In this document: one piece after another, positions 9,810 to 16,006 of the stretch
Position numbering within the stretch: position 1 is the stretch's first letter
Layout of the letters: every line of letters begins with the position of its first letter
Source of the DNA: Sphingomonadales bacterium
GTDB taxonomy: Bacteria > Bacteroidota > Bacteroidia > NS11-12g > UBA955
NCBI GenBank assembly: GCA_016872175.1
Contig: VHBA01000021.1
Location: 1-38,954 of the forward strand
DNA length: 38,954 bases
Direction of reading: 5' to 3'
Made by a program: the position numbers and the translations under genes
The notes under the pieces: generated by a model
Seen by the model: only the letters and a program-made list of their open reading frames with translations
What the model was told of the DNA's origin: nothing
The model's database searches: none

Positions 9810-10817
9810 ATGATTAAAAAACAACTTAAGATATACCGCCTTTTGGCTGTTTTTTCTTGTCTTGTTAGCGGCAGTCTGTTTTCAGCACCGGTTATCCCTA
9901 AAATTTATGTAGGATATTATATGAAAACCGTACTAATAGATAGTAAAGAGGAAAAAGCAGCCATAGACTTTTATTACTGGTACAGGTTTGACATTCCGAA
10001 GGATACTTCTTTAATCAAAACCTTGGCAAGCGTTGAGTATATCAATGGTGGTCTTCAGTCAAACGAGGTTCATGAAACCAAAATAATTGGAAACCAGTAT
10101 TACATTGCAGGTCGTGCCAAGGGGGAATTTGGATTTATTGCCGATTACTCGGCATATCCATTTGATAAGCAGATTATTCCAATTCAATTAGAACATACAA
10201 TGCTTACCAGTAATCAGGTGAAAATTGTTGTAGATTCACAGTCATATTTTAAAAGTGGAGTATCGATCGATAAATGGGGTTTGTCCCCCGATTTAAATTT
10301 CAAAGACATGATATTTGTAAAATCCCTTTTTCAATCTGACTCAAGGCTTTACAATACTAATTTTGGCGATTTTACTTCAACAGAATACCGGAGTAATTAC
10401 TCCCAATTGTCCTGCAACATATATGTGAAAAGAAATTCAATTCCTTACATGCTGAAATTCCTTATCCCTCTAATCATTATTTTGGGACTTGCCTACCTTG
10501 TATTCTTTATTGAAGCCAATAATCTGGAATTGGCTTGCGGTTTGACTGTAACTTCATTGCTGGCAGCTATTGCTTTTCAATGGACAGTATCCGATGATTT
10601 GCCAAACGTTGGATACCTTACCTGTGCAGACAAAGTCTTCTATTTGGGGTATGTATTGATTATGCTTGCCATGGTTCAGACGGTTTGGACATACCATCTT
10701 GAAAAGTCAGGCAAGGATAAATTGGCTTTGAGGATGGAAATGGCTGGCCGGTGGCTGTACCCAATTTTATTTTTTGGAGTTACAGCCACCTTCATAGCAC
10801 TTGCCATTAAATACTAA
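9810..10817 (+). CDS. Pentameric ligand-gated ion channel homologue (bacterial Cys-loop-like)
   Basis: A 335-residue protein with the architecture of GLIC/ELIC-type channels. It has a signal peptide (residues 1-25, cut near LFSA), an extracellular beta-sandwich (about 30-208), and four membrane helices: M1 about 212-234, M2 239-260, M3 274-297 and M4 314-333. Strong marks are the Pro-loop YPFDKQIIPIQLE (116-128), SDDLPNVGYLT between M2 and M3, and the M1 pattern around MLKFLIPL. The Cys-loop cysteines are absent, as in prokaryotic members. By hand alignment to GLIC, Glu240 falls at the -2' position of M2, which would suggest cation selectivity (inference). It stands alone between gcvT (divergent) and the lipoprotein (convergent), with its own promoter. 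The ligand is unknown. Confidence 0.88.
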   Translation: MIKKQLKIYRLLAVFSCLVSGSLFSAPVIPKIYVGYYMKTVLIDSKEEKAAIDFYYWYRFDIPKDTSLIKTLASVEYINGGLQSNEVHETKIIGNQYYIAGRAKGEFGFIADYSAYPFDKQIIPIQLEHTMLTSNQVKIVVDSQSYFKSGVSIDKWGLSPDLNFKDMIFVKSLFQSDSRLYNTNFGDFTSTEYRSNYSQLSCNIYVKRNSIPYMLKFLIPLIIILGLAYLVFFIEANNLELACGLTVTSLLAAIAFQWTVSDDLPNVGYLTCADKVFYLGYVLIMLAMVQTVWTYHLEKSGKDKLALRMEMAGRWLYPILFFGVTATFIALAIKY

Positions 10818-10821
10818 ACTA

Positions 10822-11343
10822 CTATTTTTGATTTAGCGGGAATGTTACGTCCACGTCAGTCTCACCCGGACCGCATGTTCCATCTTTGCTTTTGGGCTGG
10901 TGTTTGAGTGCAATTCGAATCAGTCCCGCAGATTTTCTTTTTGCTTTCCACTCGGTTGAAAGACCTATCGGGTACTTGCCGTCGTTGTCTTTGTAAATGA
11001 TTTCCAGCACATCGGAGGCAGGACCCGTAAAGCATACAAAGTGCTCTTTTCCTTCATTTTTGATTTCTGAGGTAATGTCCTCATCCCCGTTGAAAAATTG
11101 AAGATCACCGTTGTAATTAACACCGCTGTCGCACACAATGGTGTCGGTCTGTTTTGGTGAATTCCCGCCAATCCCGTCAGGGTCGCTCCAGACAAATGTC
11201 TTGGCTGTTCCTCCCGCTTTGGGCGTTAAGGTTAATTTTACTGTGGTGATGAATTCGCCTTCATCGTGCTTGTGGCATGATGTGAGATTCAGCAGAGCCG
11301 CAATAGCAGCTGCTGATGCAATGATGAGAGTTGTTTTTTTCAT
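10822..11343 (-). CDS. Lipoprotein partner of the TonB receptor
   Basis: A 173-residue exported lipoprotein. It has a signal peptide with lipobox LTSC (Cys23), and the mature protein begins Cys-His-Lys-His-Asp-Glu-Gly-Glu. The body is beta-rich with two further Cys, and the C-terminal part ALKHQPKSKDGTCGPGETD is distinctive. I remember similar Bacteroidota lipoproteins carrying the label 'type 1 periplasmic binding fold' next to TonB receptors; I cannot confirm that fold here. It is the last gene of the minus-strand unit, 18 bp after the receptor, and is convergent with the channel gene (4 bp apart). The HKHDE start of the mature chain could bind metal. A role in surface or periplasmic metal handling is inference. 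Confidence 0.82.
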   Translation of the reverse strand: MKKTTLIIASAAAIAALLNLTSCHKHDEGEFITTVKLTLTPKAGGTAKTFVWSDPDGIGGNSPKQTDTIVCDSGVNYNGDLQFFNGDEDITSEIKNEGKEHFVCFTGPASDVLEIIYKDNDGKYPIGLSTEWKAKRKSAGLIRIALKHQPKSKDGTCGPGETDVDVTFPLNQK

Positions 11344-11361
11344 GATTTTTTTATATATTTA

Positions 11362-13638
11362 TTAAAGGTGTTTTTTATGGTGGTGGTGCAGGGGTTTGAT
11401 GATAACTAAGCGGATATTGCGCCCTGGCATATCCATAAAGTATCGGAAACGATCCATGTAACTGCGGTAACTTTGGTTCAGCAAATTATTCACTTCCATA
11501 TTCCATTGCCAGCCATCTTGTCGTTCGCGTTGTGATTTTATTTTTATGTGCCATAAATGATAGGCCGCTGGCGGTGGAAGAAAATCAGTACCCGTTGTAT
11601 ACAATTGCTGTATGGCCACAAATTCGTGCTGCAACTGAAATATTAATTGTTTGTGCTTCCAGGAAAGTAAATTCTGACTCCTTAACGGGGGCAAAAATGC
11701 AGGATAATGATCTGTTTTGGTATAACGTGCGTAAACGTATTGCAGCCCTGTTTGGATTTCAAAGTTTTTGGCAAGCGTAATTTTGATTTGGGCATCCGCA
11801 CCCGTGAAAATAGCGTTGGCCTGTAGGTATTCAAACCCGGGGAAGGCGCCGCGCACAGTCATTACAGGAGCGGCCATTGGGGCTAGGTTTATAAATTCGG
11901 GCAAGTAATTGAAATAGGGTGACAGATAGCAGGCAAATTTATTGCTATGGTTGTATTCCCATTCCAGCTCGGCTCTGTAGCTTTTTTCTATTATTAAATT
12001 GCGGTTTCCCTGTTCATATGAGGCGGAACCATGGTGCACGCCCAATGAATAGAGTTCATTTACCCAAGGTGCTCTCCACATGCGCGATATGTGCCACTGA
12101 AACAATTGTTTTTCTGTCTGAATCAATCCTGTGTATGCCGCACTGTAGTTGATGAAAAAGCGTGATTGCTGATGCCATGCCCCATTATTCCGCTCCCTGG
12201 CAGAAATTTGTTTTTCGTCCAAACGAATGCTAAAGGTATGGGCAATCTTTTCTCCATGTTTATGGAGCAGCCCATAAGTTCCGTTGCTCCATCCCTGAAA
12301 ATCAGGCAGAAAGTAGAAACCACCAAACCGGTGCAGGTAAGCGCTGGATTGATTGCCCCATTCCCAATGGGTGGTTGCATCTATTTTTCTCAATTGCCGG
12401 TAAATCACCGATGGTGAAATGAGGATAAGATCCAGCTGCGGAAAACGATTTGCACTGTTGCGGTGAAAATCATACTCCCTGCGCTGATCGTACTGCAGGG
12501 CAAAGTGCCATTCGTTTTTGCCAAGTGGAGTTACTTTAATGCTGGAACCCTGCAAAGTAGCATGAATGGCCACCTGCCTTGGTTGTTCAATGCGGTAAGA
12601 AAATTCATTATCCGTTACCGGATTGCTGCGATCGATTGCCCTAAGCAGGTCATCCACATTGCCGGTGCGGGTTCCTCTGAATATGCCGCTTTCAAACCGG
12701 TAAAATTCACCATCCAGTCGGTTTTCCCTTCCGTTTTTGGTTTTTACATAGCCACCGGAAAGCGACAATTCAGACAAAGCGGTATTTTCCAGCCAAACCT
12801 TCGGTGTTCGGTAATTGCCGGACCTTCTCAGAGCAGCATTGGCATATAAGATGGGCGAACCGCTGTCGGCTTTCTGGATATAACGAACGGAATATCCGGC
12901 CAAATGGCCATTGCTGTTGTACGATACCCCCTGGTCAAGATTTTGTTCCCCTTCATGTGCCGTTGTATGTCGCTGAAGACGCAATGCTCCGCCTATGGCA
13001 TCGTGCCCGAAACGCAAAACAGATGCGTCTTTCACCCATTCCAATTCATCGAATCCTCGGGCATCGGCCTCAGGGTTATGGTCATTTCCCCACGCCTGAC
13101 CTTCCAGTCTAAACTGCTGACTTATAATAGGAAAGCGCAGACCAAACATTCCATGTGCCACGGGCTTGCTCTGATTGCGGCCTCCCTGCAACATCTGAAT
13201 GCCCGGTATTGAAACACTGATTTGACTCAAATCCCGGTCGTTTTGCTCCATGATAGTTTGCCCAATCAAGGTTATTGAAGCAGACCTTTCTTTTCTTGCA
13301 TGAATGGTGATGGTATCCGAGAAATCTGGATATGGTGAAAGAAAAATCAAAATTTGTGTGTCTCTACTCAAATGAATATCTACATGCAGGTGCTGAAAAC
13401 CGGGTTTGTCAATTTCAATCAGAACCTCACCAGTGCATGCTTTCGTCAATACAAAACGACCTTCCGCATTGGATGTGGCATGTAAATGACCGGCCTCAAT
13501 GAATGCTTCAGCCATGGGCACAGGTATGCTGTCGCGAACATTCAGAATTTGTCCACGAACAACTGCATTGCATTTTTTTTGAGCCGCCAACGGCCCAAAA
13601 GCAAGCAGGATAATGAATCCCAGCGTGATATGTTTCAT
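11362..13638 (-). CDS. TonB-dependent outer-membrane receptor, probably for metal ions
   Basis: A 758-residue receptor. The signal peptide is cut near GPLAAQ, a carboxypeptidase-regulatory-like domain spans about 25-110 (AFIEAGHLHATSNAEGRF), the plug about 115-225, and a 22-strand-type beta-barrel follows. The plug holds FRLEGQAWGNDHNPEADA and VLRFGHDAIGGALR, a pattern that I associate with ZnuD-like receptors (LEGQQWG...H.PE) in Bacteroidota. The chain ends in an unusual His-rich tail (LHHHHKKHL), where most receptors end in a barrel aromatic residue; the aromatic-rich last strand lies just before it. It is flanked by a small His/Cys exported protein and a lipoprotein in one unit. Zinc or another transition metal is a plausible substrate, inferred from the His content and partners. 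Confidence 0.9.
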   Translation of the reverse strand: MKHITLGFIILLAFGPLAAQKKCNAVVRGQILNVRDSIPVPMAEAFIEAGHLHATSNAEGRFVLTKACTGEVLIEIDKPGFQHLHVDIHLSRDTQILIFLSPYPDFSDTITIHARKERSASITLIGQTIMEQNDRDLSQISVSIPGIQMLQGGRNQSKPVAHGMFGLRFPIISQQFRLEGQAWGNDHNPEADARGFDELEWVKDASVLRFGHDAIGGALRLQRHTTAHEGEQNLDQGVSYNSNGHLAGYSVRYIQKADSGSPILYANAALRRSGNYRTPKVWLENTALSELSLSGGYVKTKNGRENRLDGEFYRFESGIFRGTRTGNVDDLLRAIDRSNPVTDNEFSYRIEQPRQVAIHATLQGSSIKVTPLGKNEWHFALQYDQRREYDFHRNSANRFPQLDLILISPSVIYRQLRKIDATTHWEWGNQSSAYLHRFGGFYFLPDFQGWSNGTYGLLHKHGEKIAHTFSIRLDEKQISARERNNGAWHQQSRFFINYSAAYTGLIQTEKQLFQWHISRMWRAPWVNELYSLGVHHGSASYEQGNRNLIIEKSYRAELEWEYNHSNKFACYLSPYFNYLPEFINLAPMAAPVMTVRGAFPGFEYLQANAIFTGADAQIKITLAKNFEIQTGLQYVYARYTKTDHYPAFLPPLRSQNLLSWKHKQLIFQLQHEFVAIQQLYTTGTDFLPPPAAYHLWHIKIKSQRERQDGWQWNMEVNNLLNQSYRSYMDRFRYFMDMPGRNIRLVIIKPLHHHHKKHL

Positions 13639-13645
13639 TTTTTAC

Positions 13646-13678
13646 CTGTATCGATACTTTTCGAGGGCGAAGTATCAG
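13646..13678 (-). promoter_or_regulatory. Nested inverted repeats before the TonB receptor gene
   Basis: The 55-bp gap before the receptor ATG holds the perfect palindrome GTATCGATAC (13648-13657). Its right half, GATACTT (13653-13659), also pairs with AAGTATC (13670-13676). This could be a regulator operator or an RNA hairpin in the polycistronic message. No assignment to Zur, Fur or another regulator can be made by eye. Confidence 0.4.
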
Positions 13679-13693
13679 CACCCTGTTTGCAGA

Positions 13694-14002
13694 CTAACAG
13701 GGCAATGCAGGCGGGGCCTTGTTTTGAATGAGGCCATTAAAGATAAATGGAACTGGCGAGAAACAGTCGGGAAAGGAAACATAACTGAAACTACCGAAAA
13801 AACAGATTTCAGGAGCGGTGTTGTCATCACTCAGCAAGGCAGGCTGATCACAAATGTCACAATCTTCCTCCACGGAAGAACCTGAATGGCTAAATGTACT
13901 GAATTCAGTGTCATGGCAATAGTGCAACCATGAACGAGGCGTTTGCACTATAAGTGTGCAGAACAAGAAAAAAAAGGCAATATGGCTGTGAAATATCCTC
14001 AT
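13694..14002 (-). CDS. Small exported His/Cys protein upstream of the TonB receptor
   Basis: A 102-residue protein with an N-terminal hydrophobic signal or anchor (about residues 7-22, HIAFFFLFCTLIV). It is followed by SWLHYCHDTEFSTFSHSG and an acidic stretch leading to DCDICDQP (a CxxC motif). The pattern of His residues followed by one CxxC in a short exported protein recurs before metal-type TonB receptors in Bacteroidota, as I remember it; I cannot name a family. Its ATG directly abuts the stop of the 108-residue gene (14003), and the receptor follows after 55 bp, so all appear to be in one operon. Metal sensing or relay is an inference. Confidence 0.6.
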   Translation of the reverse strand: MRIFHSHIAFFFLFCTLIVQTPRSWLHYCHDTEFSTFSHSGSSVEEDCDICDQPALLSDDNTAPEICFFGSFSYVSFPDCFSPVPFIFNGLIQNKAPPALPC

Positions 14003-14329
14003 TTAGGCGGTGGCCTGAAGCATATTGGTCATTTCCCTGATCTCATCCCGGTTGTATGTGTTTTCCGATTTGATGGCCAGGGAAATCAGGTATGTGAAAT
14101 TTTCTTCGGTACTTTCACCGTCTTCCAGATAGGTAAGATCAAAGGCTTCATTGGCCTCTAGGTGTTGCCAGCATAGACGCAGCGCACGGGTAAGCAGGGG
14201 GTCTTCCTCTTTCAGGGCGAATTCTCTGGCCTGCTGAAGAAGGGGAATGAGTTTATCTGGCTGAATTCCGTTTTTTTCTACCTGTTTTTGAATTTTTTCA
14301 AGGATTGTATTGGCTTCCGCGGTGCGCAT
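14003..14329 (-). CDS. Conserved helical protein, function unknown
   Basis: A 108-residue soluble protein, probably all alpha-helical (ILEKIQKQVEKNGI, LIPLLQQAREFALKEEDPLL, then acidic YLEDGESTEENF). I recognise no domain or catalytic motif. It is likely the first gene of the unit that continues into the His/Cys protein, the TonB receptor and the lipoprotein: the stop codon directly touches the next start and a consensus -7 box lies 20 bp upstream. It may be an unrelated housekeeping gene that only shares the promoter. Confidence 0.72.
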   Translation of the reverse strand: MRTAEANTILEKIQKQVEKNGIQPDKLIPLLQQAREFALKEEDPLLTRALRLCWQHLEANEAFDLTYLEDGESTEENFTYLISLAIKSENTYNRDEIREMTNMLQATA

Positions 14330-14349
14330 ATCTTAGTTGATTTGAACTG

Positions 14350-14357
14350 CAAATATA
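14350..14357 (-). promoter_or_regulatory. -7 box (TATATTTG) of the 14329-10822 unit
   Basis: TATATTTG on the minus strand matches TAnnTTTG exactly, 20 bases before the ATG at 14329. A -33 TTG is not evident. The EamA gene ends 18 bp upstream of the box, so a new transcript here is plausible. Confidence 0.5.
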
Positions 14358-14375
14358 ATATAAGGTATTAAAAAG

Positions 14376-15275
14376 TTAATCTTTCTTTGGTCGCAGACTC
14401 ATTTTAAGGTTGTATTTTCCACTAACTAGCCAAACACCCATGGTGATCATAATGGCATACATGGCTTTTTCCGGTGTCAGTTCATCCCTTCCCAGTAATA
14501 TGGCAATTAGGGTTGCTAGCAGTGGTTGCAGGTAAATATAAATTCCAACCAGTGAACCTGAAGCATGTTTTATGCCATACATATTCAACATATATACCAG
14601 AAAGCTTGTGAAAAAAAGAATGTATCCTATTTTTAGCCATATATCTCCCGGTATGGCCGAAAAAGAAGTTTGTAGGAGTGGTAAAGCTCCCAGAGGAGCA
14701 ATGTAAAGCAGTCCCATGCCAAACATTACTTTATTTACGGTGATGGCGTGGTACTTATTGGCCAGTTTTTTGGCCAAAACCAGGTAAATGGCATAGAAAA
14801 GTGCATTTACAGAAACCCAGATATCGCCTTCAAGGGTTACACTGCTGAATTGAGCCCCTTTTCCCCACATGAGCAGAAATGCACCCAGTGCCCCAATACT
14901 GATCCCGACAGTCATGCTGAGCGAGGGTTTCTTTTTTTGAATCCAGTGTTCGATGATGGCTACAAACAAGGGAGTAAACAGCATTAAAACTGCACCGTTG
15001 ATGGGTTTGGTCATGCTAAGTCCTTTGAAAAACATGAACATGTTTGCAGCGGTGCCAAAAAAAGCGCAAACGGCAAACCGTTTCCAGTCATTGCGCCATT
15101 CTATGGCTTTATCAGTTATAAATAAAGAACAAATACTGAACAGGGTGAATGCCGTCAGAATGCGAAGCCAAACAAATCCTTCCGCACTGATGTAAGCAGG
15201 CATGATTTCTCCGGCCCAAGAAAATAAAATGGCATATAAGAGCGATACGAGAAACAGTGCACTGTGGACTTTCAA
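14376..15275 (-). CDS. EamA/DMT-superfamily transporter
   Basis: A 299-residue inner-membrane protein with about ten hydrophobic helices and two EamA repeats (halves about 1-140 and 150-290). Family-like segments are WLRILTAFTLF, GLSMTKPINGAVLMLFTPLF and SGSLVGIYIYLQPLLATLIA with GRDELTPEKA at the usual place in the second half. The superfamily covers amino-acid and metabolite exporters; the substrate is unknown. The start is taken as TTG at 15275, overlapping the TGA of the DjlA-like gene in TTGA. The next in-frame Met (about residue 25) would remove most of the first helix, so the TTG is likely real. Confidence 0.9.
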   Translation of the reverse strand: MKVHSALFLVSLLYAILFSWAGEIMPAYISAEGFVWLRILTAFTLFSICSLFITDKAIEWRNDWKRFAVCAFFGTAANMFMFFKGLSMTKPINGAVLMLFTPLFVAIIEHWIQKKKPSLSMTVGISIGALGAFLLMWGKGAQFSSVTLEGDIWVSVNALFYAIYLVLAKKLANKYHAITVNKVMFGMGLLYIAPLGALPLLQTSFSAIPGDIWLKIGYILFFTSFLVYMLNMYGIKHASGSLVGIYIYLQPLLATLIAILLGRDELTPEKAMYAIMITMGVWLVSGKYNLKMSLRPKKD

Positions 15276-16006
15276 GACCAGCCCCGCTTTCTTTTTATGT
15301 TTTCATACGCCTTTTGCACGGATAAGAATTTCTCCTCTGCAGCTTTTTTTTCATTATCCGACAATCCCAACAACCTATCTGGATGAAAGCGCATGGCCAT
15401 TTTTCGGTATGCTTTTTTTACTTCTTCTTCATCAGCATTGGTGTTCACATCCAGAATCTTGTAATCTGAGTCGGGCGAGGACACAAACATGGCCCTTAAT
15501 GAAAGAAAGTCAGGAGTGGTGATGCCCATTTGGGAAGCGATGTGCTGCAGAAGTTGCAGTTCCGATGGGTTGATATCGGAATCAGCCCTTGAAATCCGAA
15601 AAAGGATGTGCAATAATTCAAGGCGCTGGCTGTAGGCCATTTCGCCTCGAATTTGCCGGCTTACAAATGTCACTTCCTGCTTTTCCTTGAGCATTTCTCT
15701 TAAAATCAGCAGGAGATGTGCTGCACGCTGCTCACCATAGGTTCTTACCAGCATGCGTTTCACAAGTTCCAGTTCACTGCGCATGGCCGATCCATCAGCA
15801 TTCATAACGGCGGCAATCAAAATCAACAAGTGACGGGAGAAATCGGTGGGAGGGGCCTGTCGGTATGTTTGTTCAGGTCTTGGCTGTGCATCTTCGCTAC
15901 CTGCATATTCAATGTACATACCTATTAAAAAGCCTACCACAGCACCAATCGGGCCTCCTGAGATTAGGCCAATAACAGCTCCGATAATAGCGATGGAAAT
16001 CTTCAA
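15272..16006 (-). CDS. DjlA-like membrane co-chaperone (TerB domain plus J domain)
   Basis: A 244-residue protein. The N-terminal membrane segment is a glycine-rich helix pair (residues 1-33, with GAVIGLISGGPIGAVVG). A TerB-like helical domain follows (about 55-165, LLILIAAVMNADGSAMRSEL) and a C-terminal J domain (about 178-244) with the HPD motif in AMRFHPDRLLGL. This is the order seen in E. coli DjlA, which stimulates DnaK ATPase at the inner membrane. HPD is intact, so it is probably functional with DnaK. It sits between the DUF4340 gene (14 bp gap) and the EamA gene (4-bp overlap) in one transcript. Confidence 0.9.
   Translation of the reverse strand: MKISIAIIGAVIGLISGGPIGAVVGFLIGMYIEYAGSEDAQPRPEQTYRQAPPTDFSRHLLILIAAVMNADGSAMRSELELVKRMLVRTYGEQRAAHLLLILREMLKEKQEVTFVSRQIRGEMAYSQRLELLHILFRISRADSDINPSELQLLQHIASQMGITTPDFLSLRAMFVSSPDSDYKILDVNTNADEEEVKKAYRKMAMRFHPDRLLGLSDNEKKAAEEKFLSVQKAYENIKRKRGWS

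Follow-up and report, generated by a model that had tools for sequence, protein, structure and literature searches.

CruR and CutF have shown that a half-made protein can sense copper. CruR of Bordetella pertussis, a DUF2946 protein, is exported, carries a CXXC motif with a terminal RAPP motif 45 residues on (± 1–2 in the family), and is encoded upstream of a TonB-dependent transporter; RAPP is required for expression and CXXC for copper control (PMC9426467). In CutF, also counted within DUF2946, export, a metal motif and a proline-rich end govern translation of the next gene via an mRNA stem-loop (PMC9973294). The two act in opposite directions, copper relieving arrest in CruR and prolonging it in CutF, and neither was detected as a stable protein (PMC9426467; PMC9973294). 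RAPP and RGPP motifs arrest ribosomes in vitro, including that of CruR with its two prolines in the P and A sites (PMC12992588). Here we describe a four-gene operon on contig VHBA01000021.1 (38,954 nt; "the window" denotes this whole stretch) of the Bacteroidota genome GCA_016872175.1, in which a small exported protein resembling these leaders precedes a ZnuD-like TonB-dependent receptor and its probable lipoprotein partner. With modest confidence, we read it as a metal-import operon, most likely for zinc, transcribed from a single promoter and controlled by a leader of the CruR/CutF kind together with an RNA switch at the receptor start.

Leaders of this type upstream of Bacteroidota TonB receptors are already known from surveys, which noted them without target or mechanism: CutF-like proteins are listed in Bacteroidota and upstream of TonB-like genes (PMC9973294), and TonB-related leaders occur throughout Gram-negatives, with copper (Cu)-related ones missing from Bacteroidota (PMC12992588). 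Little has been described of how zinc crosses the outer membrane in Bacteroidota, and we found no characterised ZnuD-type receptor from the phylum in the literature on zinc, ZnuD, Zur and TonB receptors. What the operon adds is a probable zinc ligand set, a Lys variant of the arrest motif, a covarying RNA switch and partner proteins that are uncatalogued. It offers a concrete case: the ligand residues of the receptor point to zinc, and the leader is linked to the receptor start by an RNA structure. Sensing of metals besides copper therefore becomes directly testable. If the more tentative reading of such leaders as phylum-wide zinc sensors is true, then, as far as the literature that we found goes, no arrest leader responding to zinc would have been known before, nor any metal-arrest switch have been worked out in Bacteroidota.

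A co-inherited operon with a CruR/CutF-like second gene

The window comes from a 2.26-Mb draft genome, the closest relatives of which are metagenome-assembled genomes labelled Flavobacteriales or Bacteroidetes bacterium. Four co-directional genes lie on the minus strand, as do all features below unless noted, in the order 108-aa protein (14003..14329), small protein (13694..14002), TonB-dependent receptor (11362..13638) and lipoprotein (10822..11343). The first two genes are directly adjacent; the gap is 55 nt between the small gene and the receptor gene and 18 nt between the latter and the lipoprotein gene. A preliminary description, made from the sequence without database searches, had picked out the last three as adjacent genes with His- and Cys-containing motifs, all of which are present where it placed them; it missed the 108-aa gene, the KAPP motif of the small protein and the conserved RNA structure between the small gene and the receptor. 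A Bacteroidota-type promoter element, TATATTTG (14350..14357), is located 5′ of the 108-aa gene and matches TAnnTTTG, the promoter consensus of Bacteroidota. In 25 of 30 loci of the window's family, compared with 1.4 expected, this consensus occurs in the 60 nt that precede the 108-aa gene, and the same count found it before no other gene of the operon. The four genes thus form one operon under a single promoter.

The 108-aa gene, the receptor and the lipoprotein are present in all 30 family loci, and the small gene is kept in 25. These open reading frames (ORFs) are not chance, as their order is repeated from one family locus to the next. The cassette stays intact while its surroundings vary: EamA and gcvT are its neighbors in many genomes but are missing beside it in others. 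In a phylum-wide search, 88 of 392 Bacteroidota genomes were matched by a lipoprotein profile, and a receptor of the family described here adjoins the lipoprotein in 54 of the 60 loci fetched. Upstream of the receptor, 31 of these 54 loci have a small ORF ending in [KR][AG]PP and 3 more have one ending in PPP. The co-occurrence on which the preliminary description had wanted its cassette checked is therefore borne out.

The small protein (102 aa) combines an export signal, a His pair (H27/H30, within SWLHYCHD, residues 24–31), a CxxC motif (CDIC, C48–C51) and, four residues from its end, KAPP (residues 95–98; codons 13709..13720), the presumed ribosome-pausing site. Inspection of the alignment shows the hydrophobic N terminus in the window protein and its relatives alike. 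Among 30 phylum-wide relatives the only invariant positions are H27, C48 and the terminal Pro-Pro. CxxC is found in 46 of 56 leaders. In a set of 44 leaders, 41–45 residues (43 in the window) separate it from [KRN][AGS]PP, and 2–7 residues follow the PP. Of the 25 family leaders, 15 end in KAPP, 4 in KGPP and 3 in KSPP, and the other phylum relatives end in RGPP (18) or RAPP (13). By comparison, merely 4 of 656 other ORFs of similar size end in [KR][AG]PP. The phylum-wide leader profile has a single match in the window genome, which is this protein. Collectively, the motifs and spacing make it most likely, by analogy with CruR and CutF, that the small protein is a regulatory, metal-sensing translational leader that gates receptor synthesis. 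The Pfam model DUF2946 is matched by 5 of the 30 leader relatives (best 2.4e-8) and misses the window leader, and for this reason we call the latter CruR/CutF-like rather than a DUF2946 member.

The first gene of the operon encodes a probably cytosolic protein that is well conserved among family loci (mean column identity 60%). It matched no Pfam or NCBIfam family, had no credible solved relative, and found no counterpart in the phylum-wide neighborhoods, that is, outside the family. On the plus strand, convergent with the cassette, positions 9810–10817 encode a 335-aa protein that resembles pentameric ligand-gated ion channels (NF033918, 6.3e-19, under the model cut-off).

A covarying RNA structure between the leader and the receptor start

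The junction between the leader and the receptor is predicted to fold into two hairpins enclosed by an outer stem, which spans from the KAPP codons to the receptor start. The 5′ arm of the outer stem (CCUGC, 13707..13711) overlaps the last KAPP codon and pairs with the 3′ arm, ACAGG (13645..13649), located just 5′ of the receptor ATG. Hairpin 1 (CCCUGUU/AACAGGG, 13681..13702) has its 5′ arm within the last codons and stop of the leader and is kept in all seven genus members, while hairpin 2 (GAUACUU/AAGUAUC, 13653..13676) precedes the receptor start and has three pairs changed on both sides. RNAalifold analysis of the seven genus members recovered the three stems with five compensated pairs. 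In this structure 96.2% of cells are paired, compared with 38–44% when the partners are shifted along by one to three columns. In other genera the sequences differ and the layout recurs, one arm lying at the leader stop and the other at the receptor start.

Folding energies point to the same junction. Over 80 nt, the mean folding z is −2.50 at the leader–receptor junction (25 loci), as against −0.47 at the junction of the 108-aa gene and the leader, +0.14 at the receptor–lipoprotein junction and −0.53 at leaderless receptors (5 loci); the structure is absent from the other operon junctions and from loci that lack the leader. When leader ends were paired with dinucleotide-shuffled receptor starts in 42 loci, the natural pairing exceeded chance (mean z −1.0, Wilcoxon 8e-5), and our claim of leader–receptor pairing relies on this shuffled-sequence test. 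A duplex test of matched against mismatched loci (0 of 2000 permutations) was set aside, being confounded by genome GC content. A search of positions 10500–15500 against Rfam gave no match.

A ZnuD-like receptor, its His tail and an uncatalogued lipoprotein

The receptor (758 aa) carries a CarboxypepD_reg-like N-terminal domain in addition to the TonB-dependent receptor fold recognized by Pfam and NCBIfam. For a profile of 23 family receptors, the best solved relative is ZnuD (4RDR; E 6.5e-21), with OprC second, and in a comparison of the C-terminal barrel ZnuD scores 5.2e-13, OprC 1.4e-7 and solved heme receptors 1.6e-3 or worse. In the alignment D186 and H187 (codons 13078..13083) correspond to the ZnuD zinc ligands Asp-99 and His-100, and H535 (codon 12034..12036) to His-499, an offset of 14 in the chain numbering having been allowed for. 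Three of the four ZnuD zinc-ligand positions are thus conserved, with Asp/Glu at 186, His at 187 and His at 535 each found in 76 of 76 receptors, and the ZnuD-like plug noted in the preliminary description is upheld. The curated ZnuD model NF038289 gives the receptor 52 bits, with a cut-off of 950, and generic NCBIfam heme-receptor models match 20–22 of the 23 family receptors, some of them above ZnuD; because of these two results we use the name ZnuD-like, not ZnuD. From the conserved ligands, we favor the view that the receptor would import a transition metal, and on balance this metal is probably zinc; that it is copper seems unlikely. Position 324 is His in 65 of 76 receptors, in a GSHIGN-like motif, and Arg (R324) in the window and its close relatives, possibly a change in the metal path. 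Structure models of the receptor and the lipoprotein, built from 5-row alignments, had mean predicted local distance difference test (pLDDT) values of 29.8 and 45.1, respectively, and were not used.

After the last barrel strand the receptor ends in HHHHKKHL (11365..11388), its last eight residues. At least three His residues are present in this tail in 18 of 23 family receptors and in 0 of 53 other phylum receptors, and the other 11 TonB-dependent receptors of the same genome have at most one each. The tail, which had been flagged as unusual, is indeed a real, family-level addition; it is presumably periplasmic and possibly forms a local site that hands metal on.

The lipoprotein (173 aa) had no Pfam or NCBIfam match above cut-off and no credible solved relative. 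It defines an uncatalogued family found in about a fifth of the sampled Bacteroidota genomes. HKHDE directly follows its lipobox Cys, and at least two His residues at mature positions +2 to +9 are found in just 12 of 71 relatives, confined to the family. What is conserved instead is DxDGxGG, a single His after an acidic or Asn residue, DxD and a KHQPxxKxGxxxxGETD-like stretch. At least two acidic residues occupy +2 to +9 in 60 of 71 lipoproteins; phylum relatives begin CSDDD, CKKDKDE or CEKDDP, and the window protein begins CHKHDE, with His between Lys and Asp. These N termini resemble the surface-export signals C-X-K-(D/E)2, SDDDD and SDDFE (PMC5080379), and the lipoprotein is probably a surface-exposed partner of the receptor. 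Its N-terminal His residues are incidental, and a role as a His-rich metal store was rejected on their lack of conservation. Of the His features that the preliminary description took to be shared by the three proteins, that of the lipoprotein is thus not general. The gene arrangement also varies: in three genomes (L083, L084 and L099) the lipoprotein gene precedes the receptor, with no leader seen in between, one locus (L082) has a tandem lipoprotein gene pair with no receptor of the same family adjoining, and Bernardetia plasmid NZ_CP147018.1 (L127), the sole record in a plasmid search for the lipoprotein, carries a single lipoprotein gene with no receptor beside it.

MerC (PF03203) is encoded near the cassette in 7 of 60 loci (L087, L092, L101, L104, L112, L115 and one more) and, in the six that were checked, directly upstream of the receptor. 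In another locus, the gene upstream of the receptor (L076:3414-3974) encodes a possible metal-responsive regulator, which joins a heavy-metal-associated domain to an AraC-type DNA-binding one. Because the window genome has a ZIP transporter, and ZnuA was not found in it, it is conceivable that the imported ion could enter the cytoplasm through ZIP. The genome has one Fur-family gene, beside purA. Inspection by eye only noted no Zur site at the operon promoter. A study of zinc regulation in Riemerella lists TonB receptors by locus tag, and no link from these to the operon was established.

Proposed mechanism, alternative explanations and described relatives

The regulatory steps that we propose follow from the anatomy of the locus and from the two studied relatives, CruR and CutF. 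The receptor would bind the ion through the acidic-His pair of its plug and an outer-loop His and import it with TonB, assisted by the co-transcribed, probably surface-exposed lipoprotein. When metal is scarce, a ribosome would pause on KAPP and cover the 5′ arms of the outer stem and hairpin 1; the RNA at the receptor start would be kept open, and receptor and lipoprotein would be made. When metal is plentiful, the nascent leader would bind it during export by the His pair and CxxC, ending the pause, and the RNA would then close on the receptor start such that synthesis of receptor and lipoprotein falls. The direction is that of CruR, in which metal relieves arrest, and it is preferred because the operon encodes uptake.

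Several observations weigh against this reading. No Fur/Zur-family gene lies beside the operon in 40 genomes, the nearest being ~17 kb away in two, and the search for nearby regulators that had been suggested as a check came out negative on the zinc side. ZnuD Glu-340, the fourth zinc ligand, is unmapped, as the mid-barrel profile did not reach its position; E388 and D390 of the receptor are candidates for its equivalent. A recognizable leader is absent from ~20 of the 54 phylum loci, and the window leader matches no Pfam family, DUF2946 included, at E values up to 1. It carries KAPP, not the RAPP or RGPP for which arrest is proven, and both characterised leader relatives sense copper, not zinc. 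The window sequence taken alone folds only moderately beyond its shuffles (z −1.82 over 88 nt), and a stalled ribosome in a simple model lifts the exposure of ACAGGU from 0.50 to 0.73 only.

The metal sensed by the CruR and CutF leaders raises the question of whether the same architecture serves copper, with a true CruR/CutF copper sensor and a receptor that imports copper like CrtA or OprC. Indeed, CrtA, a TonB-dependent copper importer under CruR, has a key His and no conserved Cys or Met (PMC12914433), and among solved relatives of the receptor OprC ranks second. However, the top score goes to ZnuD, the aligned plug position of OprC has no acidic-His pair, the Cu-related RAPP leaders are those reported absent from Bacteroidota, where TonB-related ones are present (PMC12992588), and the His pair plus CxxC of the leader would be a mixed ligand set typical of zinc. 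We regard the copper version as unlikely. A heme receptor, in which the conserved His residues would be heme ligands, is improbable. The matches to heme-receptor models described above speak for it, as does H535, which sits between WRAP and a GNxxL segment, where ShuA and similar receptors have their heme His. In addition, ZnuD is itself similar to heme receptors (PMC4557270). Against heme stand the barrel scores, the acidic residue found before the plug His in all 76 receptors, the metal-type leader upstream and the MerC genes near 7 of 60 loci.

The preliminary description had proposed a dedicated metal-import cassette in which two of the proteins handle the ion, the small exported one as a carrier or store and the lipoprotein as a relay or store. 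A co-inherited outer-membrane operon is what we find, and this part of the proposal holds. The carrier and relay roles appear highly improbable, even though the exported protein has both His and Cys and the His tail of the receptor could hand ions on. Beyond the ligands, the best-conserved part of the small protein is its C-terminal PP, which keeps a constant spacing from CxxC; the RNA structure is limited to loci with the leader; CruR and CutF are not detected as stable proteins; and the lipoprotein has unconserved His residues and an N terminus that resembles a surface-export signal. A different question is how the leader acts. As in CruR, it might spare the transcript from Rho-dependent termination, with the RNA structure taking no part in translation, and leader–receptor gaps of 200–323 nt in some phylum loci would be compatible with that route. 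We consider it unlikely here: the gap in the family is mostly 29–78 nt, compared with the 162 nt of cruR-bfrG, and the paired arm extends as far as the receptor start, a combination that fits the CutF arrangement better. Our preferred reading thus remains a leader that controls translation of a probable zinc receptor through the RNA at its start. A more tentative extension is that such leaders may be zinc sensors phylum-wide, in which a nascent chain with a His pair and CxxC pauses the ribosome at [K/R][A/G]PP and a covarying RNA switch sets translation of a ZnuD-like receptor and its lipoprotein.

Comparison with the CruR leader of cruR-bfrG/crtA (PMC9426467, PMC12914433) reveals the same overall organization, with a small exported protein that carries CXXC and, ~45 residues on, a terminal RAPP-type motif, encoded directly 5′ of a TonB-dependent receptor in the same operon. 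However, there are differences between the systems. The window leader has Lys in place of Arg (KAPP) and a His pair beside CxxC, is unrecognized by the DUF2946 model, and comes second in its operon, after the 108-aa gene; its 55-nt gap contains structured RNA, in contrast to the Rho control in the longer gap of cruR-bfrG; and the receptor it precedes is ZnuD-like, not CrtA. The CutF leader of cutFOG in Rhodobacter capsulatus (PMC9973294) likewise combines export, a metal motif and a proline-rich end with an mRNA stem-loop over the start of the next gene. In that system the leader controls a copper oxidase and metal prolongs arrest, whereas the window leader precedes an uptake receptor and the opposite direction is expected. 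The RAPP/RGPP arrest peptides (PMC12992588) share the terminal [R/K][A/G]PP in a small exported protein 5′ of the regulated gene; the window family adds the Lys variant and metal ligands ahead of the motif, and arrest is predicted for it.

Among receptors, OprC and CrtA are metal-importing TonB-dependent receptors like that proposed here, OprC differing in its plug as noted and CrtA being likened by description, not sequence. ZnuD of Neisseria (4RDR; PMC4557270) is the closest counterpart, a TonB-dependent receptor with the aligned Asp/Glu-His pair in its plug and a His in an outer-loop motif. The window receptor scores far under the curated ZnuD cut-off, has the extra CarboxypepD_reg-like domain and leaves the fourth ligand unmapped. 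In contrast to ZnuD, the window system adds a presumably periplasmic His tail, specific to the window's family, together with a probable partner lipoprotein and the proposed leader control.

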